Assembly: GCF_039555335.1 (NCBI RefSeq)
Contig: NC_092629.1
Coordinates: forward strand, 31,369,382 to 31,433,381
Direction of reading: 5' to 3'
Source of the DNA: Amphiura filiformis
Lineage: Eukaryota; Echinodermata; Ophiuroidea; Amphilepidida; Amphiuridae
DNA: 64,000 nucleotides
A program made the translations under genes and the position numbers. Below are positions 21,346 to 60,449 of the stretch, piece after piece; the stretch's first letter is position 1; each line of letters opens with the position of its first letter. A model generated the notes under the pieces. That model was not told where the DNA came from. It saw only the letters and a program-made list of their open reading frames with translations, and ran no database searches.

Positions 21346-22415
21346 ATAAATAAAAAATAGTGTATGTGCAATCGCAACTTTTCAACATATAGGTCAATCG
21401 TATATGGGGGAAGGTATAATGAGCAATAATATGGGTCTTTCATGAGCAGATGCTATAAAATGGGGGTCTTTGAGAGACATAGTTTTGAAAATATAAGACT
21501 TTGGTAGAAAATCTTAACAATGGGGTCTCTGAGAGGCAGATGGTAAAATCTGGGTAAAACCTTTGCACAAAAAGGCACAAAAAGGCACACAAATACACAT
21601 TATAATATTAATTAAGTGAACCAAAATTTCAAGCCGCAATTGGATGAGGTGGGTTCAGAGAAAGCCGTGAAAGGGTGAATGCCATTAAGTTTCAACTCAT
21701 CTTAAAAGTAACTTCAGGCGACGCGATCTTTTGTTGGTCGAAGCAACCAAAAAAAAATCGATTTTCATTGTCTAAATCAATATATTATTGGAAAATAACA
21801 CTTTCATGTTTTGCACAAGTTTATTCTACAAATCATATACTTTAAAAACCTGCTTGATTTAGTGTTGTTAATGAGTTATGTACGTTTTACAAAAGTGTTT
21901 TTGTTTCAGCCCTCTTTACAACGTAACTCAAGAACCACAGGACCTGCAAAAGTATACCTGTGATATTTGAATTCTTCTACACACTCGCTATAATATGAAA
22001 TGATCACAGCAATTTTGCCAAAATTCACTACCATTCGCAAGATGCAGTGAACTACCAAATCTCAACAGTTTACAATAGTTGCTAACCTAAACTTATGAGC
22101 GCAAGATGACAGGAGTGTCAGGAATGACTAAAAATAAAATCAAAATGCTGGTTGAACACAAACATACATTTTGCTTTCTTATTTTCTGAAATTGCCCAAT
22201 TGATACATCATGTAGAAGTCATATACGAAGGAAGGATCCTTCCAATTACCAATCATAGAGATCTTAATGAATTTATTAGATTTGCCCTACTAATTATTTC
22301 GAAATAGGACGACCTAATAACTAAGACAGGTTTTGACAGCTTCGGTGCCTATCATCAATCAGTCATGGTCAACTTACTTATTATAAACCAAATCATGATT
22401 TTGACAGGTCTTTTT
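21346..22415. other. Intergenic, nothing recognised
   Basis: No gene, RNA or clear repeat pair is seen. Confidence 0.45.
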
Positions 22416-22456
22416 TTTTTTTTTTTGGGGGGGTATATATATATATATATATATAT
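22410..22456. repeat. T-run, G-run and (TA)n microsatellite
   Basis: Sixteen T, then seven G, then about twelve TA units in direct succession. Confidence 0.85.
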
Positions 22457-22560
22457 CATTAAGTTCTGCCAAATGAAACATAGCTCAATCATATTTCACT
22501 GAGCACTAACTGGAGATATTAGGGAAAAGTTCATTATTTTACTAATGTCTTGTTTTCCCA
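22456..22560. repeat. Half copy of the 4674-5247 element
   Basis: GTTCTGCCAAATGAAACATA, AGCTCAATCAT, AAAAGTTCA and TTTTACTAATGTCTTG follow the order of the left arm at 4713-4815. Only one arm is present. Confidence 0.6.
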
Positions 22561-22901
22561 AAAGACCTAATTTTTTTAAATATATATAATATTTGCTTAC
22601 AGCATATATTCAACACTCTATAAAGTGGATACATATCATATAAAGAAATGCATTTGAACTCACAGTATTCCTATAGCACGGTTAGCACCAAAGAATCGGG
22701 TGTGGTTCATAAAAGTTTAAAGACCTTCCGATGAGTAGTGACTTTGCTACAAATTCTAACTTATCATTTCTCAATATTACTTGTCATTTTGCTTTTATTT
22801 GTGTCGCGACATTTACAAGGTGTTGTCTGTCTATACATACTCTTTAAAGTTTTCTTTCATCGACGAATTCCCCAGATCCACCGGCACAGGAAACCGCTAT
22901 C

Positions 22902-23153
22902 ATGGGGAACATTGCCAGATTGAAGCTTCAAAAACCACACGACCACGTGGCAAGCGCAGAGAAGCTCTCATCAAATAAGCGCATCCGTAAAGTAGGTTTC
23001 ATGGTTCCGGTGGATTGCAAACAGTCGATAAAATATTTCACAAGTGCCGTCTCCAGAAACCCTTCCCTAAATCACCAACCTGTTCTGAAGGCTTATAGAA
23101 TAGTACTTGATCATACAAATTTCTTAGGAAAAGCCCGGGAAATTAGATATTAA
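22902..23153 (+). CDS. Unrecognised 83-codon ORF, doubtful
   Basis: Starts ATG GGG AAC and encodes MGNIARLKLQKPHDHVASA, a basic, low-cysteine protein with no family I recognise. The first half (22876-22978) has more CpG than its surroundings, and another frame over it reads a basic stretch KTTRPRGKRREALIK before a stop. The MGN start invites an N-myristoylation idea, but nothing supports it. The ORF might equally be an exon fragment bounded by an acceptor-like TTCCCCAG (22868-22875), or chance. Confidence 0.2.
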   Translation: MGNIARLKLQKPHDHVASAEKLSSNKRIRKVGFMVPVDCKQSIKYFTSAVSRNPSLNHQPVLKAYRIVLDHTNFLGKAREIRY

Positions 23154-23425
23154 ATTAAAGTACATAATTGTCAGTGATTAACGGAACAAGAATTCACCGA
23201 AGCTCGGTCATTAGACTTTTTTTCACACGTAAAGACAAATTTTTTTTTTTTTTTACAATGACAGGTGAATTGTTTTGTCTTAAGAGCTGTCAAAGTTTTT
23301 TTGTTTGTATAAAAACTAATATACTAATTTGTATGTTCCGGTTGAAATATGTGACGGACGGCTGGTTGGCAGAGACTAGTAAGTAGCTTCAGGCTACTGA
23401 AAGTTGACACGCAAGTAATTTTGCG
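23154..23425. other. Left flank of the minisatellite
   Basis: Contains a T-run (23239-23253) and two small palindromes (AGCTTCAGGCTACTGA and CACGCAAGTAATTTTGCGTG) immediately before the array begins at about 23426. No copy of the MITE bounding the right side is present here. Confidence 0.5.
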
Positions 23426-24987
23426 TGCACCCACCCTTTTGGTTCTCTTTTAATGTTCAAGTGCGCCCATCATCCCTCTTTTTTCCCTTTTTGGAATGAC
23501 CGAGTGCACCCACCAATTTTGGTCTGTTTTTGGAATGACCGAGTGCACCCAACCATTTTGGTCTGTTTTTGGAATGACAGAGTGCAGTGCACCCACCCAT
23601 TTGGTTCTCTTTCTGGAATGACTGAGTGCACCCACCCATTTGGTTCTCTTTCTGGAATGACCGAGTGCACCCACCCATTTTGGTCTCTTTTTGGAATGAC
23701 CGAGTGCACCCGCCCATTTTGGTCTCTTTTTGGATGACCGAGTGCACCCACCCATTTTGGTCTCTTTTTGGAATGACCGTGTGCACCTGCCCATTTTGGT
23801 CTCTTTTTGGAATGACCGAGTGCACCCACCCATTTTGGTCTCTTTTTTGAATGACCGAGTGCACCCACCTATTTTGGTCTCTTTTTGGAATGACCGTGTG
23901 CACCCACCTTTTTGGAATGACAGTGCACCCACCCATGTTGGTCTCTTTTTGGAATGACCGAGTGCACCCACCTATTTTGGTCTCTTTTTGGAATGACCGA
24001 GTGCACCCACCCATTTTGGTCTCTTTTTGGAATGACCGAGTGCACCCACCCATTTTGGTCTCTATTTGGAATGACCGAGTCCACCCACCCTTTTGGTTCT
24101 CTTTTTGGAATGACCGAGTGCACCCACCCATTTTGGTCTCTTTTTCGAATGACCGAGTGCACCCAGCCATTTTGTTCTCTTTCTGGAATGACCGAGTGCA
24201 TCCACACATTTTGGACTCTTTTTGGAATGACCGAGTGCACCCACCCAATTTGGTCTCTTTTTGGAATGACCGAGTGCACCTACCCATTTTGGTCTCTTTT
24301 TGGAATGACCGAGTGCACCTACCCATTTTGATTCTCTTTTTGGAATGACCGAGTGCACCCACCCATTTTGGTCTCTTTTTGGAATGACCGAGTGCACCCA
24401 CCCATTTTGGTTTTCTTTTTGGAATGACCGAGTCCACCCACCCTATTGGTTCTCTTTTTGGAATGACCGAGTGCACCCACCCATTTTGGTCTGTTTTAGA
24501 ATGACCGAGTGCACCTACCCATTTTGGTTCTCTTTTTGGAATGACCGAGTGTACCCACCCATTTTGGTCTCTTTTTGGAATGACCGAGTGCACCCACCCA
24601 TTTTGGTCTCTTTTTGGAATGACCGAGTGCACCCACCCAATTTGGTCTCTTTTTGGTATGACCGAGTGCACCCACCCATTTTGATTCTCTTTTTGGAATG
24701 ACCGAGTGCACCCACCCAATTTGGTCTCTTTTTGGAATGACCGAGTGCACCCACCCATTTTGGTCTCTTTTTGGAATGACCGTGTGCACCCACCCATTTT
24801 GGTCTCTGTTTGGAATGAGCGAGTGCACCCAGCCATTTTGGTCTCTTTTTGGAATGACCGAGTGCACCCACCCAATTTGGTATCTTTTTGGAATGACCGA
24901 GTGCACCCACCCATTTTGGTCTCTTTTGGAATGACCGAGTGCACCCACCCATTTTGGTTTTCTTTTTGGAATGACCGAATGCACCCA

Positions 24988-25112
24988 GGTTAGCAAAATT
25001 GACAGAAAACGTTTAAATGTCGGGTTATATAAAGGATATATAAAGGGTATACAACGTTTCCGTAATATAACATTCACAAATATTTTCTGAAAACTTGCTG
25101 TCAAATATTCTA
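24988..25112. mobile_element. MITE fragment 1 inside the minisatellite
   Basis: Begins at GGTTAGCAAAATTGACAG and ends in CAAATATTCTA, then fuses to TGTGCGCCCACCC of the array. It is an internal piece of the CAGCAAACAC-family MITE, missing both ends. Confidence 0.85.
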
Positions 25113-25943
25113 TGTGCGCCCACCCTTTTGGTTCTCTTTCTGGAATGACCGAGTGCGCCCACCCTTTTGGATTTCTCTTTAGAATGACCGAGTGCACCAA
25201 TCATTGGTTTTCTCTTTGGAATGACCGAGTCCACCCACCCTTTTGGTTCTCTTTTTGGAATGACCGAGTCCACCCACCCATTTTGGTCTCTGTTTGGAAT
25301 GAGCGAGTGCACCCAGCCATTTTGGTCTCTTTTTGGAATGACCGAGTGCACCCAGCCATTTTGGTCTCTTTTGGGAATGACCGAGTGCACCTACCCATTT
25401 TGATTCTCTTTTTGGAATGACCGAGTGCACCCACCCATTTTGGTATCTTTTTGGAATGACTGAGTGCACCCACCCAATTTGGTCTCTTTTGGGAATGACC
25501 GAGTGCACCTACCCATTTTGATTCTCTTTTGGAATGACCGAGTCCACCCACCCATTTTGGTCTCTTTTTGGAATGACCGAGTGCACCCAGCCATTTTGGT
25601 CTCTTTTGGGAATGACCGAGTGCACCTACCCATTTTGATTCTCTTTTTGGAATGACCGAGTCCACCCACCCATTTTGGTCTCTTTTTGGAATGACAGAGT
25701 GCACCCACCCATGTTGGTCTCTTTTTGGAATGACCGAGTGCACCCACCCATTTTGGTCTCTTTTTGGAATGATCGTGTGCACCCACCCATTTTGGTCTCT
25801 GTTTGGAATGAGCGAGTGCACCCACCCATTTTGATTCTCTTTTTGGAATGACCGAGTGCACCCACCCATTTTGGTCTGTTTTTGGAATGACCGAGTGCAC
25901 CCACCCATTTTGGTTTTCTTTTTGGAATGACCGAATGCACCCA

Positions 25944-26069
25944 GGTTAGCAAAAATTGACAGAAAACGTTTAAATGTCGGGTTATATAAAGGATATATAA
26001 AGGGTATACAACGTTTCCGTAATATAACATTCACAAATATTTTCTGAAAACTTGCTGTCAAATATTCTA
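25944..26069. mobile_element. MITE fragment 2 inside the minisatellite
   Basis: Same breakpoints and orientation as the first fragment, 956 bp downstream of its start. The following units (TTTTGGTTCTCTTTCTGG, then TTGGATTTCTCTTTAG) are also the same. Confidence 0.85.
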
Positions 26070-26999
26070 TGTGCGCCCACCCTTTTGGTTCTCTTTCTGG
26101 AATGACCAAGTGCGCCCACCCTTTTGGATTTCTCTTTAGAATGACCGAGTGCACCAATCATTGGTTTTCTCTTTGGAATGACCGAGTCCACCCACCCTTT
26201 TGGTTCTCTTTTTGGAATGACCGAGTCCACCCACCCATTTTGGTCTCTGTTTGGAATGAGCGAGTGCACCCACCCATTTTGGTCTCTTTTTGGAATGACC
26301 GAGTGCACCCAGCCATTTTGGTCTCTTTTGGGAATGACCGAGTGCACCTACCCATTTTGATTCTCTTTTGGAATGACCGAGTGCACCCACCCATTTTGGT
26401 ATCTTTTGGAATGACCGAGTGCACCCACCCATTTTGGTCTCTTTTTGGAATGACCGAGTGCACCCACCCATTTTGGTCTCTCTTTGGAATGACCGAGTGC
26501 ACCCAGCCATTTTGGTCTCTTTTGGGAATGACCGAGTGCACCTACCCATTTTGATTCTCTTTTTGGAATGACCGAGTCCACCCACCCATTTTGGTCTCTT
26601 TTTGGAATGACCGAGTGCACCCAGCCATTTTGGTCTCTTTTTGGAATGACCGAGTGCACCCACCCAATTTGGTCTCTTTTTGGAATGACCGAGTGCACCC
26701 ACCCATTTTGATTCTCTTTTTGGAATGACCGAGTGCACCCACCCAATTTGGTCTCTTTTTGGAATGACCGAGTGCACCCACCCATTTGAATGTGTGCACC
26801 CACCCATTTTGGTCTCTGTTTGGAATGAGCGAGTGCACCCAGCCATTTTGGTCTCTTTTTGGAATGACCGAGTGCACCTACCCATTTTGATTCTCTTTTT
26901 GGAATGACCGAGTGCACCCACCCATTTTGGTCTCTTTTTGGAATGACCGAGTGCACCCACCCATTTTGGTTTTCTTTTTGGAATGACCGAATGCACCCA

Positions 27000-27125
27000 G
27001 GTTAGCAAAAATTGACAGAAAACGTTTAAATGTCGGGTTATATAAAGGATATATAAAGGGTATACAACGTTTCCGTAATATAACATTCACAAATATTTTC
27101 TGAAAACTTGCTGTCAAATATTCTA
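27000..27125. mobile_element. MITE fragment 3 inside the minisatellite
   Basis: Same junctions, 1056 bp after fragment 2. About 100 bp more of the 39-bp units separate it from fragment 2 than separate fragments 1 and 2. Confidence 0.85.
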
Positions 27126-27956
27126 TGTGCGCCCACCCTTTTGGTTCTCTTTCTGGAATGACCGAGTGCGCCCACCCTTTTGGATTTCTCTTTAGAATGA
27201 CCGAGTGCACCAATCATTGGTTTTCTCTTTGGAATGACCGAGTCCACCCACCCTTTTGGTTCTCTTTTTGGAATGACCGAGTCCACCCACCCATTTTGGT
27301 CTCTGTTTGGAATGAGCTAGTGCACCCAGCCATTTTGGTCTCTTTTTGGAATGACCGAGTGCACCCAGCCATTTTGGTCTCTTTTTGGAATGACCGAGTG
27401 CACCTACCCATTTTGATTCTCTTTTTGGAATGACCGAGTGCACCCACCCATTTTGGTATCTTTTTGGAATGACTGAGTGCACCCACCCAATTTGGTCTCT
27501 TTTGGGAATGACCGAGTGCACCTACCCATTTTGATTCTCTTTTTGGAATGACCGAGTCCACCCACCCATTTTGGTCTCTTTTTGGAATGACCGAGTGCAC
27601 CCAGCCATTTTGGTCTCTTTTGGGAATGACCGAGTGCACCTACCCATTTTGATTCTCTTTTGGAATGACCGAGTCCACCCACCCATTTTGGTCTCTTTTT
27701 GGAATGACCGAGTGCACCCACCCATGTTGGTCTCTTTTTGGAATGACCGAGTGCACCCACCCATTTTGGTCTCTTTTTGGAATGATCGTGTGCACCCACC
27801 CATTTTGGTCTCTGTTTGGAATGAGCGAGTGCACCCACCCATTTTGATTCTCTTTTTGGAATGACCGAGTGCACCCACCCATTTTGGTCTCTTTTTGGAA
27901 TGACCGAGTGCACCCACCAATTTTGGTTTTCTTTTTGGAATGACCGAATGCACCCA

Positions 27957-28082
27957 GGTTAGCAAAAATTGACAGAAAACGTTTAAATGTCGGGTTATAT
28001 AAAGGATATATAAAGGGTATACAACGTTTCCGTAATATAACATTCACAAATATTTTCTGAAAACTTGCTGTCAAATATTCTA
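27957..28082. mobile_element. MITE fragment 4 inside the minisatellite
   Basis: Same junctions, 957 bp after fragment 3. The preceding segment closely resembles the one before fragment 2, indicating block duplication. Confidence 0.85.
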
Positions 28083-29336
28083 TGTGCGCCCACCCTTTTG
28101 GTTCTCTTTCTGGAATGACCAAGTGCGCCCACCCTTTTGGATTTCTCTTTAGAATGACCGAGTGCACCAATCATTGGTTTTCTCTTTGGAATGACCGAGT
28201 CCACCCACCCTTTTGGTTCTCTTTTTGGAATGACCGAGTCCACCCACCCATTTTGGTCTCTGTTTGGAATGAGCGAGTGCACCCACCCATTTTGGTCTCT
28301 TTTTGGAATGACCGAGTGCACCCAGCCATTTTGGTCTCTTTTGGGAATGACCGAGTGCACCTACCCATTTTGATTCTCTTTTTGGAATGACCGAGTGCAC
28401 CCACCCATTTTGGTATCTTTTTGGAATGACCGAGTGCACCCACCCATTTTGGTCTCTTTTTGGAATGACCGAGTGCACCCACCCATTTTGGTCTCTCTTT
28501 GGAATGACCGAGTGCACCCAGCCATTTTGGTCTCTTTTGGGAATGACCGAGTGCACCTACCCATTTTGATTCTTTTTTTGGAATGACCAGCCCACCCACC
28601 CATTTTGGTCTCTTTTTGGAATGACCGAGTGCACCCAGCCATTTTGGTCTCTTTTGGGAATGACCGAGTGCACCTACCCATTTTGATTCTCTTTTGGAAT
28701 GACCGAGTCCACCCACCCATTTTGGTCTCTTTTTGAAATGACCGAGTGCACCCACCCATTTTGGTCTCTTTTTGGAATGACCGAGTGCACCCACCCATTT
28801 TGGTCTCTTTTTGGAATGACCGAGTGCACCCACCCAATTTGGTCTCTTTTTGGAATGACCGAGTGCACCTACCCCGTCTGATTCTCTTTTTGGAATGACC
28901 GAGTCCACCCACCCATTTTGGTCTCTTTTTGGAATGACCGAGTGCACCCAGCCATTTTGGTCTCTTTTGGGAATGACCGAGTGCACCTACCCATTCTCTT
29001 TTTGGAGTGACCGAGTCCCCCCACCCATTTTGGTCTTTTTTTGGAATGACTGAGTCCACCCCCCCAATTTTGTCTCTTTTTGGAATGACCGAGTGCACCC
29101 ACCCATGTTGGTCTCTTTTTGGAATGACCGAGTGCACCCACCCATTTTGGTCTCTTTTTGGAATGATCGTGTGCACCCACCCATTTTGGTCTCTGTTTGG
29201 AATGAGCGAGTGCACCCACCCATTTTGATTCTCTTTTTGGAATGACCGAGTGCACCCACCCATTTTGGTCTCTTTTTGGAATGACCGAGTGCACCCACCC
29301 ATTTTGGTTTTCTTTTGGAATGACCGAATGCACCCA

Positions 29337-29462
29337 GGTTAGCAAAAATTGACAGAAAACGTTTAAATGTCGGGTTATATAAAGGATATATAAAGGGTAT
29401 ACAACGTTTCCGTAATATAACATTCACAAATATTTTCTGAAAACTTGCTGTCAAATATTCTA
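29337..29462. mobile_element. MITE fragment 5 inside the minisatellite
   Basis: Same junctions, 1380 bp after fragment 4, so this block gained roughly eleven extra 39-bp units. Confidence 0.85.
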
Positions 29463-30796
29463 TGTGCGCCCACCCTTTTGGTTCTCTTTCTGGAATGACC
29501 AAGTGCGCCCACCCTTTTGGATTTCTCTTTAGAATGACCGAGTGCACCAATCATTGGTTTCTCTTTGGAATGACCGAGTCCACCCACCCTTTTGGTTCTC
29601 TTTTGGAATGACCGAGTCCACCCACCCATTTTGGTCTCTGTTTGGAATGAGCGAGTGCACCCACCCATTTTGGTCTCTTTTTGGAATGACCGAGTGCACC
29701 CAGCCATTTTGGTCTCTTTTGGGAATGACCGAGTGCACCTACCCATTTTGATTCTCTTTTTGGAATGACCGAGTGCACCCACCCATTTTGGTCTCTTTTT
29801 GGAATGACCGAGTGCACCCACCCATTTTGGTCTCTTTTTGGAATGACCGAGTGCACCAACCCATTTTGGTCTCTCTTTGGAATGACCGAGTGCACCCAGC
29901 CATTTTGGTCTCTTTTGGGAATGACCGAGTGCACCTACCCATTTTGATTCTCTTTTTGGAATGACCGAGTCCACCCACCCATTTTGGTCTCTTTTTGGAA
30001 TGACCGAGTGCACCCAGCCATTTTGGTCTCTTTTGGGAATGACCGAGTGCACCTACCCATTTTGATTCTCTTTTTGGAATGACCGAGTCCACCCACCCAT
30101 TTTGGTCTCTTTTTGGAATGACCGAGTGCACCCACCCATTTTGGTCTCTTTTTGGAATGACCGAGTGCACCCACCCATTTTGGTCTCTTTTTGGAATGAC
30201 CGAGTGCACCCACCCAATTTGGTCTCTTTTTGGAATGACCGAGTGCACCTGCCCCTTTTGAGTCTCTTTTTGGAATGACCGAGTGCACCCACCCAATTTG
30301 GTCTCTTTTTGGAATGACCGAGTGCACCCACCCATTTTGGTCTCTTTTTGGAATGACCGAGTGCACCCACCCATTTTGGTCTCTTTTTGGAATGACCGTG
30401 TGCACCTACCCTTTTTGGTCTCTTTTTGGAATGACCGAGTGCATCCAACCATTTTGGTCTCTTTTTGGAATGACCGAGTGCACCTACCCATTTTGATTCT
30501 CTTTTTGGAATGACCGAGTGCACCCACCCAATTTGGTCTCTTTTTGGAATGACCGAGTGCACCCACCCATTTTGGTCTCTTTTTGGAATGACCGAGTGCA
30601 CCCACCCATTTTGGTCTCTTTTTGGAATGACCGTGTGCACCTACCCTTTTTGGTCTCTTTTTGGAATGACCGAGTGCATCCAACCATTTTGGTCTCTTTT
30701 TGGAATGACCGAGTGCACCCACCCATTTTGGTCTCTTTTTGGATTGACCGAGTGAACCCACCCAATTGGTTTTCTTTTGGAATGACCGAGTGCACC

Positions 30797-31188
30797 CAGC
30801 AAACACAAAACGTTTTTCACATTATTCACAACAAAAGGTTAGCAGAAATTGACAGAAAACGTTTAAATGTCGGGTTATATAAAGGCTATATAAAGGGTAT
30901 AAAACGTTTCCGTAATATAACATTCATCTGATAACTTGCTGTCAAATATTCTACTATAATGTTATTTAAATATTGACAAGATATTTTGTACAACATTTTG
31001 GAAAAATGTTTGTAAAAATATTGTACAATAACATTTTGACAATATTAAAAAAAATGTTTTTGTAGCATTTTTAATATAAAACGTTTTCATGATCAAACCT
31101 GACATTTTAATGTTGTTAAAATGTTTTCACCAAATCCAAAACCCTAAATATAACCAGTTTAAAACGTTCAACGTTTTTGTGTTTGCTG
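30797..31188. mobile_element. Complete CAGCAAACAC-family MITE bounding the array
   Basis: The left end CAGCAAACACAAAACGTTTT and the right end CGTTTTTGTGTTTGCTG are inverted. The last minisatellite unit (GAGTGCACC) abuts the left end without a gap. The internal GGTTAGCAGAAATTGACAG to CAAATATTCTA segment is the source type of the five fragments. However, those carry extra bases (ACAAATATTTTCTGA region) absent here, so they derive from a sister copy. Confidence 0.85.
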
Positions 31189-31751
31189 TGAAGTTATGAA
31201 AGAAAGGGGGCATTTTACCCAATGAAGGAGGTCGTGAAAGAATAGACGTATCTCTTTAAAGGGGCATTTCGTGATCCACAGCATCACCCCCACTTTTCTC
31301 AAAAAAGTTGAGATCTTTATACCACTGGAAAAGAGAATTTTTATGTGGTGTGTACGTGTGAACAAAAATGATTCTTGTACACAATGCTGATTTATCGACG
31401 AGATTTGTTCAGGGCTACATATTCACGTGATTAGCAAACAATAACATTGGGCAATTCAGTTGGTCAAAAGTTTCCCTAAATCGTAGTCTGTTTCTAAGAC
31501 CTGAAATGAAACAGGGATGAATTAAATATACTATACTAGTAATCATGCATGGAGTATAAAATGCTGACTGAATAACTGTATAATTGTTGCTTGTGGTAAA
31601 CATGACGAAAGGGTATTGCATTATTCAATCTGATTGCAGACATAGGCCTTCGCAGTTGTTGAGTGCAACCTGCTTGTAGTGCAGTGCGATATATTCAAAA
31701 ATTGTTTTAACCTATTGCTATGGTAGTTTAACCTGTAACATCATCACTTCT
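31189..31751. other. Intergenic or upstream region, nothing recognised
   Basis: No gene supported on either strand. Short open frames on the minus strand lack domain character. Confidence 0.4.
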
Positions 31752-31814
31752 ATGGCGAATAAACTCGAGTCAGTAAACCCATTACATTTTCTACAAAAGC
31801 AACATTTTCAACGG
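31752..31814 (+). CDS. Candidate first coding exon with perfect donor
   Basis: ATG at 31752 opens 21 codons (MANKLESVNPLHFLQKQHF and two more) ending exactly at CGG followed by GTAAGTGC, a strong splice donor in phase 0. The upstream sequence CACTTCTATGG gives a G at +4. No matching downstream exon could be identified before the transposon at 32207, and no family is recognised. Short ATG-to-GTAAGT stretches occur by chance, so this is a lead only. Confidence 0.25.
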
Positions 31815-32206
31815 GTAAGTGCATATTTTGAATTTGCATTTTTTTTATCATGAAAAGAGTTATAGTGGCAACTGAGCTACAAGACAAATGAGGCATCAGA
31901 TGTTGCAGAACAAATTAATTGACCGCTTTGTTTACTGAAACATATCTTTTTGTTCTAAACGACCAATTGAATGTCAATGTATAATCTTAAATAGTTTTAC
32001 GAAGAACTAAATTGGGTCCTGCAAAGGACAGAAAAATACTTTTCAAGACATGGAAAAAGGTTTGGTAAATGCCAGAAAGAACCATTTCGGGTTATCGCAA
32101 TTCCTTAAACCCAGTACTTTTGAGCTGTCCTGTATGTAGAATCAAAACCCAAAAATATTGGGTTGTTTTGCTCCATAATCCATATCCATATTATATACTC
32201 ATGATA

Positions 32207-32743
32207 CTGCGCCAAAAAGTATCCGAACATGGAAACAAAATATCCTAATTATAAAACTAAACCATTATTTGTGTATTTGTTTTTAATAGATGCACTATCA
32301 AATCCTGCACAATATGACACCCCATTGAATCCAATGTGACCTTAAGAAGTATTTGATTAGACGAATGTCCCGTTTTTAAAGTGACAAATGTATGGCTAGC
32401 TAATTAATGCACGCCTGAAACAAACAAAAAAACTGGAAAAAATAAAATAAAAGGTGTGAAAAGTACAGAGAAGAAAAAAATGAAATAAAAACTTACTGCT
32501 TTAAATAAAGCTTGACCGAAGAAACTGTGTTTCTCTTTGTTGCGCTGTTCGCTTTGTACATACCAGTTTGTCAATTTTAAAACTGGACCTTCGTCTAATC
32601 AAATGCTTGTATCTTTACTTCTTGAAGTCACATTGGATTCAATGGGGTGTCAAAATGTGCAGAATTAGATAGTGCATCTATTAAATATATAAATTGATCC
32701 ATTATGATTTAGTTTTAAAAGTTCGGATACTTTTTTGGCGCAG
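32207..32743. mobile_element. Tc1/mariner-type MITE with about 185-bp TIRs
   Basis: The left arm (32207 to about 32392) and right arm (about 32567-32743) are reverse complements. Shared words are CTGCGCCAAAAAGTATCCGA, TAGATGCACTATC, ACACCCCATTGAATCCAATG and TTTGATTAGACGAA. TA flanks both ends (32205-32206 and 32744-32745). The 175-bp centre has no transposase, so the element is non-autonomous. Confidence 0.85.
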
Positions 32744-33105: not shown

Positions 33106-33550
33106 ATGTGATGCGATCAAGCAAAATCAGTCGGAACTCGGTCGATCCTTCATGTAATTATTTCGTGTAATCTAATCCTAACTCTAACCCTAATCCTAAC
33201 CCTAATCATAATCATAACCCTAATCCTAACCCTAACCCTAATCCTAACCCTAATCATAACCCTAACCTTAACCCTAACCCTAATTTCGTGTAAAATTACA
33301 TGAAGGAATTACCCGGAACTCGGAAATATTGATTTTGAGATATAGCCAAACAAAGGCAATATTTTCTTTTGTTTCCTTTTATTTTGGAAACTCTTGAATT
33401 GCTCATAATCATATCTTTGAAAATGGTTCTTCAATTTTAATGGGGTTTTCTACAAAATCCAGCTTTGCAATGCTTTTTACTATCCTATAAGAAACTGAAA
33501 ATTAAATATTTCCGAGTTCCGACTGATTTTGCTTGATCGCATCATCACAT
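33106..33550. mobile_element. MITE with perfect 32-bp TIR and telomere-like interior
   Basis: GATGCGATCAAGCAAAATC at 33110 continuing to CGGAACTCGG (33141) is matched perfectly over 32 bases by 33512-33543 in reverse. The outer TGTGATG also matches after a 3-bp gap. Just inside, TTCATGTAAT and TTTCGTGTAA occur as a second inverted pair around the CCCTAA repeats. Confidence 0.85.
33171..33284. repeat. Interstitial telomere-like (CCTAAC/CCCTAA)n tract
   Basis: About 19 degenerate hexamers, CCCTAA with TCCTAA and TCATAA variants, lie inside the MITE between its inner inverted repeats. They are embedded in ordinary DNA, so this is not a chromosome end. Confidence 0.85.
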
Positions 33551-46401: not shown

Positions 46402-48450
46402 TTACATTCATTGCACATTTCATGAATTCAATCCATAGACATAGGCAGAGTCATTCCATTCATTGCACATATTTCATGAATTCATTCTATAGACATAGGC
46501 CGAGTCGTTTCATTCATTACACATTTCATGAATTCAACACATAGACATAAGGCAGAGCCAGAGTCGTTTCATTCATTACACATTTCATGAATTCAATCCA
46601 TAGACATAGGCAGAGTCGTTCCATTCATTGCACATTTCATGAATTCATTCCATAGACATAGGCCGAGTCGTTTCATTCATTACACATTTCATGAATTCAA
46701 CACATAGACATAAGGCAGAGTCATTCCATTAATTGCATATTTCATGAATTCATTCCATAGATTTAGGCCTAGTCGTTCCATTCATTACACATTTCATGAA
46801 TTCAACCCATAGACATAAGGCAGAGTCGTTTCATTCATTACACATTTCATGAATTCAATCCATAGACATAGGCAGAGTCATTCCATTCATTACACATTTC
46901 ATGAATTCAACCCATAGACATAGGCCGAGTTGTTTCATTCATTACACATTTCATTAATTCAATCCATAGACATAGGCAGAGTCATTCCATTCATTGCACA
47001 TATTTCATGAATTCATTCCATAGATTTAGGCCTAGTCGTTCCATTCATTACACATTTCATGAATTCAATCCATAGACATAGGCAGAGTCGTTCCATTCAT
47101 TACACATTTCATGAATTCAACCCATAGACATAAGGCAGAGTCGTTCCATTCATTACACATTTCATGAATTCAACCCATAGACATAAGGCAGAGTCGTTCC
47201 ATTCATTACACATTTCATGTATTCAACCCATAGACATAAGGCAGAGTCGTTTCATTCATTACACATTTCATGAATTCAACACATAGACATAAGGCAGAGT
47301 CGTTTCATTCATTACACATTTCATGAATTCAACCCATAGACATAGGCCGAGTTGTTTAATTCATTACACATTTCGTTAATTCAATCCATAGACATAGGCA
47401 GAGTCGTTTCATTCATTACACATTTCATGAATTCAACCCATAGACATAGGGCAGAGTCGTTTCATTCATTACACATTTCATGAATTCAACCCATAGACAT
47501 AAGGCAGAGTCGTTTCATTCATTACACATTTCATGAATTCAACCCATAGACATAAGGCAGAGTCGTTTCATTCATTACACATTTCATGAATTCAACCCAT
47601 AGACATAGGCAGAGTCATTCCATTCATTGCATATTTCATGAATTCATTCCATAGACATAGGCCGAGTCGTTTCATTCATGGCACATTTCATTAATTCAAC
47701 CCATAGACATAGGCAGAGTCGTTCCATTCATTACACATTTCATTAATTCAACCCATAGACATAGGCAGAGTCGTTCCATTCATTACACATTTCATTAATT
47801 CAACCCATAGACATAGGCAGAGTCGTTCCATTCATTACGCATTTCATGAATTCAATCCATAGACATAGGCAGAGTCGTTCCATTTATTACACATTTCATG
47901 AATTCAACCCATAGACATAGACATGTAGTACACTGTAGTAAGTCGAGTCGTTCTATTCATTGTATATTTCATGAATTCAATCTATATACATACTAGTAGT
48001 AGGTCGAGTCGTTCCATTAATGGCATATTTCATGAATTCAATCTATAAACATACTAGTAGTAGCTCGAGTCGTTCAATTTCATTCATGGCATATTTCATG
48101 AATTCAGTCTATATATATACTAGTACTAGTAGGTTGAGTCGTTCCATTCATTGCACATTTCATGAATTTGTTCCATAGGCATGGACCGAGTCGTTCCATT
48201 CATTACACATTTTATGAATTCGTTCTATAGACATGGACGAAGTCGTTCCATTCATTATACATTATCATGGTTTCATTAATTCAATCACCCCAGACAGAGA
48301 GTCGTTCTATTCATTACACCTTTCATGAATTTATTCTATAGGCATAGGTCCTGTCGTTTAATTCATTACACATTCCATGAATTCATTCTATATGCATAGG
48401 TAGAGTCATTCCATTCATTACACATGTCACAAATTCATTCCATAGATATA

Positions 48451-49268: not shown

Positions 49269-49625
49269 TCATATAAACAATGAAGGGCAATGGTCCAGGA
49301 ATATACCCTGTGGAACTCCCCGGCACACCTGCTCAGTTTCAGAGTTAACCGAAAGATAGTTGATAGACCATTCATATGACACCCCTCTAAAACGACAGTG
49401 ATAAGACATCCCTCTAAAACCACAGTGATATAATGTATGCAGTAAAATGCCACGATCAATGATCAATCCTATCAAAGGGTTTGATAAATACATGAAAATA
49501 CCAAAGGTATCCATGCCTTTATCAATCTCTTTACCGATATCATTAACAACATCCACCACAGTCATGTAAGTTGAGTGATTTGTTCGGAAACTATTATTGT
49601 TTCTTGGCATTCCATAATCGAGTCG
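49269..49625 (-). pseudogene. RT fragment of a Jockey/CR1-type LINE
   Basis: The minus strand reads FRTNHSTYMTVVDVVNDIGK, DTFGIFMYLSNPLIG, GILLHTLYHCGFRG and CRGVPQGIFL. These correspond to reverse transcriptase motifs around motif A (normally LDLSKAFDTIDH) and motif B (normally GVPQGSILGP). The motif A aspartates are lost, and the segment YHCGFRG is duplicated in tandem, so it is inactive. It lies inside the 53-bp satellite. Its edge sequence (GTTCGGAAACTATTATT) recurs at 49929-49945, showing that the insert was later duplicated with the array. Confidence 0.7.
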
Positions 49626-49920
49626 TTCCATTCATTATACATTTCAGTCATTCCATAGACATAAGTCGAGTCGTTCCATTCATTACATCATGAATTTAAT
49701 CCATAGACATAGGCCGAGTCATCCCATTCATTGCACATTTCATGAATTCATCCATAGACATAGGCCGAGTAGTTCCATTCATTGCACATTTCATGAATTC
49801 ATTCCACAGACATAGGCCGAGTCGTTTCATTCATGGCACATTTCATGAATTCATTCCATAGACATAGGCTGAGTCATTCCATTCATGGCACATTTCATGA
49901 AGCTTCATGAATTCATTGTT

Positions 49921-49966
49921 GAGTGAGTTGTTCGGAAACTATTATTATTTCTTGGCATTCAATAAT
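49921..49966. repeat. Second copy of the LINE-satellite junction
   Basis: TTGTTCGGAAACTATTATTA then TTTCTTGGCATTCAATAATC repeats 49580-49625, the edge of the RT fragment, inside the satellite. Confidence 0.8.
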
Positions 49967-50840
49967 CGAGTCGTTCCATTCATTATACATTTCATGAATT
50001 AATTCCATAGACATAAGCCGAGTCGTTCCATTCATTGCATCATGAATTCAATCCATAGATATAGGCCGATTCGTTCCATTCATTGCACATTTCATGAATT
50101 CAATCCACAGATATAGGCCGATTCGTTCCATTTATTGCACATTTCATGATTCATCCATAGACATAGGCCGAGCCGTTCCATTCATTACACATTTCATGAA
50201 TTCATTCCATAGACATAGGCCGAGTTCTTCCATTCATTGCAAATTTCATGAATTCATTCCATAGACATAGGCCTAGTCGTTTCATTCATGGCAGATTTCA
50301 TGAATTCATTTCATAGACATAGGCCGAGTCGTTCCATTCATTGCATCATGAATTCAATCCATAGACATAGGCCGAGATCTTCCATTCATTGCACATTTCA
50401 TGAATTCATTCCATAGACATAGGCCTAGTCGTTTCATTCATGGTACATTTCATGAATTCATTTCATAGACATAGGCCGAGTCGTTCCATTCATTGCATCA
50501 TGAATTCAATCCAATTCAATAGATTTAGGCCGATTCGTTCTTTTCATTGAACATTTCATGATTCATCCATAGACACAGGCCGAGTCGTTCCATTCATTGC
50601 ACATTTCATGAATTCATTCCACACAGACATATGCCGAGTCGTTCCATTCATTGCACATTTCATGAATACATTTCATAGACATAGGCCGAGTCGTTTCATC
50701 CATGGCATATTTCACGAATTCATTCCATAGACATAGGCCGAGTCGTTACATTCATATGTAACATTTCATGAATTCAATCCATAGACATATGCCGAGTCGT
50801 TCTATTCATTACACATTTCATGAATTCATTCCATAGCACA

Positions 50841-51457: not shown

Positions 51458-52160
51458 CATAGACATAGGCCGAGTAGTTCCATTCATTGCACATTTCATG
51501 AATTCATTCCACAGACATAGGCCGAGTCGTTCCATTCATTGCACATTTCATGTATTCATTCCATAGACAAAGGCCGAGTCGTTTCATTCATGGCACATTT
51601 CATGAATTCATTAACATAGGCCGAGTCGTTCCATTCATTGCATCATGAATTCAATCCACAGATATAGGCCGATTCGTTCCATTCATTGCACATTTCATGA
51701 ATTCATTCCATAGACATAGGCCTAGTCGTTTCATTCATGGCACATTTCATGAATTCATTAACATAGGCCGAGTCGTTCCACTCATTGCACATTTCATGAT
51801 TCATCCATAGACATATGCCGAGTCATTCCATTCATTATACATTTCATGAATTCAATCCATAGACATAGGTCAAGTCCTCCCATTCATTGCACATTTCATG
51901 AATTCATTCCATAGACATAGGCAGAGTCGTTCCATTCATTGCATATTTCATGAATTCATTTCATAGACATTATAGGCCGAGTCGTTTAATTCATGGCACA
52001 TTTCATGAATTCATTCCATAGACATAGGCCGAGTCGTTGCATTCATATACATTTCATGAATTCAATCCATAGACATAGGTCAAGTCGATTCATTCATTGC
52101 ACATTTCATGAATCAAGGTCCATTCGTTCCATTTATCAGTGCATTCAATTCATGGACAAC

Positions 52161-53273: not shown

Positions 53274-54695
53274 TCATTCGCGTCCACTAGCCTTGCTTAA
53301 TTCGAGTGGTGTCCTCGAACTCATGGCCTTCCACAACTTCCTGTCCTCCATTGCTGTCTTGAAGTATGCTGCCTCCAGCTCCAGTCCAGTGTCATCTTCC
53401 AGAATGTCAATGTAGGTCAGAGCAGGTCTTCAGGTTTCCGCCTCCCATGCTTGGGTGTCCAATGAACCATTTCTGATTCAGGCTGCTCACTTCTGGAACA
53501 GTGGCCAGCAAACCGGGTTCTTCTTTCCCTGATCTTGTGACTTATTTTGGGAAGATCTCTATATAGGTCTGCATTTGACATTTGTTCCTTCCAATGCACA
53601 TTCAGAACAGTTCTTAGCATGCGGGTGTAACAGCCATCCAGACCCTTTGCATAATAGGGGTGATGGTCCATGCTTCGCATCCATAAAGCAGCACCGACTC
53701 CACTGTTGCAGCAAAGATTCTGAGTTTGAAACTCCTGGTAAGAGTTGACCTCCAGATTTTCTTAAGTTTACTGCACGCCCTCCATGCTGCTGCTTTACGT
53801 AACTTTACATCCCTTTCTGTGCTTTTCATCCAAGCGTCTAAGGTATTTGAAGTCATCTACCTCCTCTAGTACTACACCCGCCTCATTTGTTGTGATGTTT
53901 TCTCTCCTGTTATTATAGGACATATACTTTGTTTTACTTCCATTCATCTTCAGGCCCACTTTAGCAGCTGAAGTCTCCACTCTATGAAGCAGTTCTTGTG
54001 CTTGGTGTATTTCCTCAGACAACAGTGCAATGTCGTCAGCAAAATCAAAGTCTGTCACCACGACTGGGCCAACTCTCCTACTTCGCCTCTTTTCCAGATG
54101 GAATCCTAGCTCTTGAACATCGTTTCCTTCAATAGCTATTCTCAGTGTTAAGTCGAGGACAATCACAAACAGGTATGGGGCGAGGGTATCCCCCTGAAGT
54201 ACTCCTGCTAAGATTTCAAACAATTCTGTCTCGCCATCTGGTGAAGGCTTGGTGATATTATTTTGGCTTTTGTGTTTTGGTACATTTTGCCAATAGCTTC
54301 AACAATGAGTTCCGGAATACCGTATAGGCATGGAGTATCTTCAACATCTTGTCTCTATGGATGGTGTCGAAAGCTTTCTTGAAGTCGATGAATCTTATTA
54401 TCGCTGGCAGGTTATGCGCCGTTACCTCATCAATCAGCCTATATGCAGTGCAAGGATGTGTCCAACAGTCGTTCTACCAACTTTAAATCCATTCTGATTT
54501 GTTCTCAGATGCTGGTCAATTTCAGGTTTGATCCTATTAGGCGAAGTATCATTCTGTTGTAGGTTTTGGCTACGATGGAGGTTAATAGACTGATACCGCG
54601 ATAATTGTTTCCGGAACTAAGATCTCCTGTTTTAGGGATAGGAACAATATTAAGTATGGACCATTGATCCGGTTTCGTCCACTAGCCAGTGGCCA
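53274..54695 (-). pseudogene. 5'-truncated RTE-like LINE reverse transcriptase
   Basis: The minus strand carries an RT domain in order: KTGDLSSGNNYRGISLLTSI (54590-54660), FIDFKKAFDTIH (motif A, 54355-54390), FEILAGVLQGDTLAPYLF (motif B, about 54160-54222), DFDFADDIALL (motif C with its two aspartates, about 54025-54055) and SKTKYMSYNN. It continues into the post-RT segment SVLLYGCEAWTIT, the RMLRTVLNVHWKEQM and DLPKIS...RRTRFAGHC block, GRRKP, and a last frame ending SKASGRE with TGA at 53274-53276. At least four frameshifts break it, so it makes no enzyme. The endonuclease half is missing. The word choice in motif B suggests an RTE-type clade, which I cannot confirm without a tree. Confidence 0.88.
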
Positions 54696-59318: not shown

Positions 59319-59808
59319 CTGAGTTACTGGTAATTATAATTTCTTGGAAAGCCTGATAAATCAATGAATTTGTATTTTTATGTGTGTGTGTAATTTCCAA
59401 ACTATAGAATTTAATCAGGCAGCTTCCAGGAATGACTCTACTTAATGTATATTCCAATTCATGTACATGTAATTTGAGTTGGTAACATTTATAATTGTAA
59501 AATAAGAAAGTTCTAAAGAAAAGAAAGACCATAAATTGGAAACATTGAAAATTAACCTGTAAAATTGTAATCCAGAGCTGAGACGTGCAGTCGATCTGTT
59601 TAGATCAATTTAAACCATAGAGATCTTCAAAATTTACAACTTTGGAATATTTTGTGCCAACCCTGGATCAGCACTGTTCACAGTCATTGTACAGCCATTC
59701 TGTGCAAGCTTTTTGAGGACTTTTGAATTGATTTTCAGACTCATGATTATTATTGTTGTCACTACATGTAGTACACTATATTATTGCCATGTCTGTTTTC
59801 TTTCACAG

Positions 59809-60343
59809 GACGAGTTCCACCCGTTCATCGAAGCAGTGCTTCCATACATCAAATCCTTCTCCTACACATGGTTTAACCTACAAGCACGGAAACGCAAATA
59901 CTACAAGAAACACGAGAAAAGAATGAGCCCTTTAGAAGAGCGTCAGACCAAAGAAGAACTGATGAACGACAAACCGGAATTGAAACAGAAATGGGCCTCG
60001 CGGCTCCTAGCCAAACTTCGCAAAGACATCAGACCCGAGTTTCGGGAGGATTTTGTTTTAAGTGTTACGGGCAAGAAGCCCGCTATGTGTGTGTTGAGTA
60101 ACCCGGACCAGAAAGGCAAAATGAGACGCATTGATTGTCTCAGGCAGGCTGATAAAGTCTGGCGGTTGGACCTAGTGATGGTGGTTCTTTTTAAAGCCAT
60201 TCCTTTAGAGAGTACAGACGGCGAGAGACTTTTGAAGTCGCCTCAATGCTCAAATCCGGGACTGTGTGTACAGCCGCACCACATAGGTGTGAGTGTGAGG
60301 GAGTTGGATTTGTTCCTAGCCAACTTTATCATGCAAACTCCAG
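59809..60343 (+). CDS. NFI: Nuclear Factor I DNA-binding exon (exon 2)
   Basis: Encodes 178 residues of the N-terminal DNA-binding and dimerisation domain of NFI (CTF family), a nuclear factor that binds TTGGC(N5)GCCAA as a dimer. The exon begins [20 protein letters not shown], contains [20 protein letters not shown], then [20 protein letters not shown], and [58 protein letters not shown] and [20 protein letters not shown]. The four conserved cysteines (MCVLS, IDCLR, PQCSN, GLCVQ) that matter for binding and redox control are all present. The exon runs from TTTCACAG to CCAG/GTAAGTA, 535 bp in phase 0 to phase 1. This is one codon longer than the 532-bp exon 2 I recall from vertebrate NFI genes and has the same phases. 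No stop or frameshift. The next exon is not in the window. Confidence 0.97.
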
Positions 60344-60449
60344 GTAAGTAAAAGGGCTTCAACATGCTCATCTATCAGGGCTCAGTTCTATAACCCCAAT
60401 ACATTAATTGCACCTTCATTGAATGACCTTTGAAAGTTGTGAGTACAAA

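Follow-up and report, generated by a model that had tools for sequence, protein, structure and literature searches.

The 64-kb stretch of the Amphiura filiformis genome analysed here (the window; 37.8% G+C and not a single N) contains a 39-bp minisatellite array that directly abuts an element resembling a miniature inverted-repeat transposable element (MITE). The array lies on the + strand at 23425-30794, a span of about 7.4 kb, and its unit has the consensus GTGCACCCACCCATTTTGGTCTCTTTTTGGAATGACCGA. Tandem Repeats Finder (TRF) places it at 23487-30798, with 184.7 copies and a score of 7007, and a unit parser divides it into 172 units of at least 15 nt. Shorter units, which are partial and lie at block ends, were left out of the unit counts and the k-mer tests below. 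The array is not continuous. It is interrupted by five pieces of 126-127 bp, all from one MITE-like element, which separate six blocks of minisatellite units (B0 to B5).

All five fragments are on the + strand. Fragment 1 (24987-25112) has 126 bp, one A fewer than fragments 2 (25943-26069), 3 (26999-27125), 4 (27956-28082) and 5 (29336-29462). The blocks, which follow one another head to tail, are B1 (25113-25942), B2 (26070-26998), B3 (27126-27955), B4 (28083-29335) and B5 (29463-30794), in addition to B0 on the left, and they too are read on the + strand. A model reading of the sequence (the original prediction) had already claimed that the fragments belong to one family, that they share their breakpoints and that they start 956, 1056, 957 and 1380 bp apart. 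The distances are exact and the breakpoints agree at base level in five of five fragments. The left joint, CACCCAGGTTAGC, occurs five times on the + strand and never on the - strand, and the same counts hold for the right joint, ATTCTATGTGCGCCCACCC. In other words, the search for these junctions elsewhere, which had been recommended and which covered the 64-kb window, found neither of them outside the five fragments on either strand.

The MITE-like element at the right end of the array (30797-31188, + strand) is the proposed source of the fragments. It is 392 bp long, is 74% A+T and has perfect terminal inverted repeats (TIRs) of 14 bp. It has no coding capacity of its own at a threshold of 110 aa for open frames; three frames of at least 110 aa (start codon not required) enter its left end, all of them running on from frames of the array. 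In being short, AT-rich, bounded by TIRs and without coding frames of its own at that threshold, it resembles a MITE. The right end of the array is the left TIR of this element, as had been predicted, but the element is near-complete rather than complete. It lacks the last two G's found at the right end of another copy (GCTG-TGAA compared with GCTGGG-TA). No target-site duplication is visible at 30797-31188. Beyond the array fragments, strong matches to the family occur at two places in the window, and the second family copy, at about 2070-2775 on the - strand, carries a nested relative. The outer copy there has TA on both sides and the inner one TGCA. The nested relative is inserted close to the place in the element where the array fragments are cut off. 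A 20-base TIR string has no exact match in viral contigs, and a text search of the literature for the TIR string likewise returned no match.

How do the fragments compare with the near-complete element beside them? The element reads ...GACCGAGTGCACCCAGCAAACAC...AAAGGTTAGCAG... and the fragments ...GACCGAATGCACCCAGGTTAGCAA..., and in both the joint with the array falls at CACCCA, the same place in the unit. Apart from 38 bp that are missing at the start of the fragments, the position of the left joint is the same. On the other side, the fragments are cut after ATTCTA, at about base 158 of the element. Over 118 aligned bases, 4 substitutions separate the fragments from the element, and there are two indels, the one of 38 bp and another of 9 bp. 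At the 9-bp place, a five-row alignment shows sequence in the nested copy and in the left half of the outer copy. Therefore, the 9-bp deletion probably belongs to the near-complete element's own line, as far as a gapped alignment of diverged copies can indicate. Conversely, a TACAAC difference is found in the fragments alone. The fragments and the near-complete element thus each seem to have changes of their own, like sisters and not like a parent and its present-day offspring. Among themselves, the fragments show no substitutions in any of the 10 pairs and a single 1-base indel, in the first copy. The blocks are therefore probably recent.

The blocks are not equally related to one another. 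When the first 12 units are compared, B1 and B3 differ by 2 substitutions, B2 and B4 by none, and B5 by 2 from B2 and by 2 from B4, which defines two start classes, alpha (B1, B3) and beta (B2, B4, B5). Between the classes there are 10-14 substitutions (6 pairs). The last six units of B0 to B4 also fall into two classes. One is x (B0 and B2, 4 substitutions apart) and the other is y (B1, B3 and B4, with 2 substitutions for B1/B3 and 1 each for B1/B4 and B3/B4), with 8-12 substitutions between them (6 pairs). B1 and B3 thus run from alpha to y, B2 from beta to x and B4 from beta to y. B5 begins as beta and its right end, in which a local duplication with a 235-bp shift is present, is outside both end classes. 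Read from left to right, the five junctions are x-alpha, y-beta, x-alpha, y-beta and y-beta (two of the first type and three of the second). The two sides of a fragment are therefore inherited together, which is evidence that junctions are copied as units, and there is also evidence that a two-block dimer of about 2 kb has itself been repeated. Three tiers of order can be read: 39 bp, a block of about 1 kb and a dimer of about 2 kb. Corresponding units among the first 12 differ by a mean of 0-0.17 substitutions for B1/B3, B2/B4, B2/B5 and B4/B5, and by 0.83 for B1/B2, the single between-class pair tested. Neighbouring units in the same stretches differ by 2.8-3.5. Corresponding units of different blocks are thus closer than neighbours, which is the mark of a higher-order repeat.

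The similarity of some blocks raises the question of whether the assembly, and not the genome, has multiplied them. B1 and B3, with the fragment included, are 99.3% identical over 957 bp, and such a pair could come from haplotype duplication or misjoined reads, chiefly in the B1-B2/B3-B4 dimer. However, the other 14 of the 15 block pairs are only 91.1-97.1% identical in block alignment, B2 and B4 (1056 and 1380 bp) differ in length by 324 bp and there is no N in the window. It is therefore very improbable that the blocks are, wholly or in part, an artefact of assembly. To judge from the strings of unit types, the differences within the blocks come in large part from 39-bp units that were swapped, added or lost.

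One aspect on which the original prediction was silent is that the units next to the fragments resemble the edges of the array. The first six units of the array (23425-23664, + strand) contain the rare variants GTGCGCCC, ATCAT and TTTGGTTCTCTTTCTGG, which they have in common with post-fragment units. The string GTGCGCCCA occurs 11 times on the + strand of the window and not at all on the - strand. It is present in both of the units that directly follow a fragment, in all five cases, and apart from these only in unit 2 of the left edge (23461). Within the array, ATCAT has six + strand sites, one at 23469 and one in the third unit after each fragment. The likeness was quantified by a rare-k-mer score with 5000 shuffles, for which 20 units (15 post-fragment and 5 pre-fragment) were removed and 152 were left. 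The left edge ranks first of 147 windows in likeness to post-fragment units at k=5, 6, 7 and 8, and its score was reached by 0, 0, 0 and 4 of the 5000 shuffles, respectively. In a control with 122 unit triplets from blocks 1-5, the five highest left-edge scores belong to the five post-fragment triplets at every k. The reciprocal query agrees, in that the top windows for left-edge units 1-2 hold the first two post-fragment units at every k.

A similar link, albeit a weaker one, exists at the right edge. The last unit before the near-complete element (30752-30796, + strand) carries the GGTTTTCTTTT variant, as does the unit that immediately precedes each fragment. TTGGTTTTCTTTT occurs seven times on the + strand of the window and never on the - strand: before five of five fragments, before the near-complete element and at 24407. 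The last array unit ranks second of 152 in likeness to the pre-fragment unit (permutation p 0.013-0.015). When the last unit is the query, the six best-scoring units at k=6, 7 and 8 comprise all five pre-fragment units plus unit 24392. When pre-fragment variants are pooled, the last unit holds rank 1 at k=5-6 and rank 3 at k=7-8. As a separate observation, unit 24392 in B0, which carries GGTTTTCTTTT, is directly followed by a unit (24432) that is one base off the fourth post-fragment unit. This is suggestive only, but 24392-24470 might be the trace of a former junction that has lost its fragment and three units by a deletion between matching GGAATGACCGA ends.

Each fragment is thus preceded by a unit like the last one at the right edge and followed by units like those of the left edge. 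The order right edge, MITE piece, left edge is what would be expected if the entire array was duplicated in tandem and one of the breakpoints lay inside the flanking MITE. Such a duplication would also explain why the last block alone ends in the more complete element. We consider it rather likely that the fragments arose in this way, by a fusion of the two array edges across part of the flanking MITE, and not by capture in the interior of the array. The original prediction of one capture followed by block duplication accordingly holds in part. One founding event and a duplication of blocks with their junctions carried along are supported, the latter also by the two linked junction types, and the same is true of the later gain and loss of 39-bp units. 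It is the interior position of the capture that is less well supported. Fusion of the edges is the simpler event, since a MITE fragment that had entered the array's interior (as filler at a break, for example) and was then duplicated with its surroundings would share features with the edges only incidentally, and three coincidences would be needed: the left-edge variants, the right-edge variant and the same unit position of the joint. Nevertheless, interior capture would suit the fact that both breakpoints of the fragment are internal to the element, and the divergence of the fragments from the adjacent element also speaks for it. A two-base AG overlap could on its own account for the left joint, for CACCCAG occurs 24 times in the array and 5 of these are the fragment joints. 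On balance, interior capture appears unlikely.

Several observations weigh against the fusion of edges. The right-edge link consists of one unit variant and the joint position. With the last unit as the query, third post-fragment units appear among the pre-fragment ones at k=5, and with the last two units as the query, the pre-fragment units are not clearly best. In the pooled comparison, it is units 23504 and 24392 that score above the last unit at k=7 and 8. The last unit also bears some resemblance to post-fragment units (rank 4-12 of 152, p 0.027-0.08), and so does the left edge to the pre-fragment unit (p 0.022 at k=5; 0.08, 0.08 and 0.37 at k=6-8). The two edges are therefore not cleanly separated. 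When left-edge units 1-6 are the query, window 27908 is top at every k, above purely post-fragment windows, and windows 25856 and 27869 come next at k=6-8. All three extend across a fragment, and pre-fragment units contribute to their scores. In the triplet control, B2 and B4 are the only blocks for which the left edge is the best window at k=5-7, and at k=8 there is no such block, because near-identical homologues in other blocks, not all of which were excluded, stayed in the comparison. Degenerate edges are rich in rare variants, which can favour sharing by chance. Then there is the structure of the blocks themselves. The right end of B5 is 11-14 substitutions from every other block end (6 units) and no full copy of B0 is seen in B1-B5. 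Finally, a fragment derived from another copy of the family could also show the 4 substitutions and two indels that set the fragments apart from the near-complete element.

If the edges were indeed fused, the history might have run as follows. The starting point would be a 39-bp minisatellite directly to the left of a MITE-like element, the two being joined at CCCA, a string present both in the array unit and at the element terminus. A tandem duplication, a step that the data support, would then have linked a point inside the element (after ATTCTA, at about base 158) to the base with which the array begins, and the entire array would have been repeated along with a 5' piece of the MITE. This founding event was probably illegitimate rather than homologous, by end joining or template switching, because the two sides of the ATTCTA/TGTGCGCC joint overlap by about 1 base at most. 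A homologous origin can nonetheless be imagined. If the array had once lain between two MITE copies in the same direction, ordinary homologous recombination between them could have duplicated it and would explain why exactly the same junction is reused, the left copy having been lost later. However, a search of the whole window with the element at E up to 1 gave no match in 22400-23425, and a comparison of the left flank with 30790-32200 gave none either. A pair of flanking MITEs is thus very doubtful as the origin. After the edge fusion, 38 bp would have been lost at the array/MITE joint in the duplicated line and 9 bp from the complete element in its own line; the two differences are seen directly, and it is their timing that we infer. 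Thereafter, the homologous blocks could have expanded by unequal exchange to give five fragments, which is again supported. Junctions would have been carried as units, yielding two junction types and the two-block dimer, as 39-bp units inside the blocks were gained, lost and swapped.

Some other readings of the array were tried and rejected. Its frames look open because 39 is divisible by 3. However, 41 of the 172 units are longer or shorter than 39 bp by an amount that is no multiple of 3, and a coding role of the repeat is unlikely. Nor does the array unit appear to come from the MITE. With the array masked, unit matches in the window are only 10-23 bases long, with E values of 1.7 or worse. 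A 23-base piece of the unit has no exact match in prokaryote genome contigs; this outcome, like that for the TIR string in viral contigs, is to be expected of animal DNA. Nothing suggestive of a cellular function was found at the locus, and the mechanism is one of genomic turnover.

The window has further repeats. TRF reported three more minisatellite arrays, whose unit is mostly 52 bp long, at 46405-48445, 49619-50836 and 51458-52113. The same history was considered for them and rejected, since their two spacers show no match to one another or to the outer flanks; the first of them consists in part of degenerate array (67-71% identity). To the right of the 39-bp array, an inverted repeat occupies 32234-32736; it is imperfect, with 78% identity between arms of about 155-170 bp, and is perhaps another foldback or TIR element. 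A degenerate interstitial telomere-like (CCCTAA)n tract lies at 33172-33283, with ATTTCGTGTAA on both sides. An exon-like frame at 59614-60351 (+ strand), about 29 kb from the array end, matches the Pfam nuclear factor I (NFI) pre-N-terminal and MH1 domains (E 8.7e-26 and 9.3e-12), which in itself points to an animal as the source. A frame at 53795-54298 (- strand) matches reverse transcriptase (Pfam RVT_1, E 3.7e-11) and is perhaps a remnant of a long interspersed nuclear element (LINE); the adjacent frame at 53417-53761 has no Pfam match.

In satellites, homogenisation has often gone so far that the first step towards higher-order structure can no longer be seen. At this locus, the founding joint, the likely source element and both edges are all within 8 kb and are readable, which makes the order of events testable in relatives and among alleles. 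The array seems to record its own growth, as a repeat that was copied several times, each time with the same broken piece of a MITE. Tentatively, edge-to-edge fusion by way of a flanking transposon may be one route by which a minisatellite acquires higher-order structure, with the MITE piece serving as a register mark, unequal exchange proceeding in whole blocks and two-block dimers following. The locus illustrates known processes and changes no principle.

How does it compare with known systems? Higher-order satellite repeats, alpha satellite and similar ones, consist of multimeric blocks of diverged monomers in the account given by the relevant part of PMC2820488. As in that account, the present blocks were amplified as units and corresponding monomers are closer than neighbours. 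Unlike the repeats described there, this is a 39-bp minisatellite of only six blocks and not a long satellite, and every block bears a stretch of unrelated DNA from the flank as its mark. Minisatellites that are linked to dispersed repeats or stem from them were reportedly described by Armour et al. in 1989. Further dispersed-repeat-linked minisatellites are tabulated in PMC6947457, and, like those in its table, the present array directly abuts a mobile element. In contrast to the tabulated cases, no likeness is detectable between its 39-bp unit and the element, a piece of which travels in a larger block. The same table lists satellites derived from MITEs, namely HindIII of oysters, BIV160 of bivalves and D1100 of rye, with which the locus shares the presence of MITE sequence in tandem copies (PMC6947457). 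Compared with these entries, the MITE is here a minor passenger and not the monomer. The locus therefore joins kinds of repeat evolution that have already been described, and it does so with its history legible.

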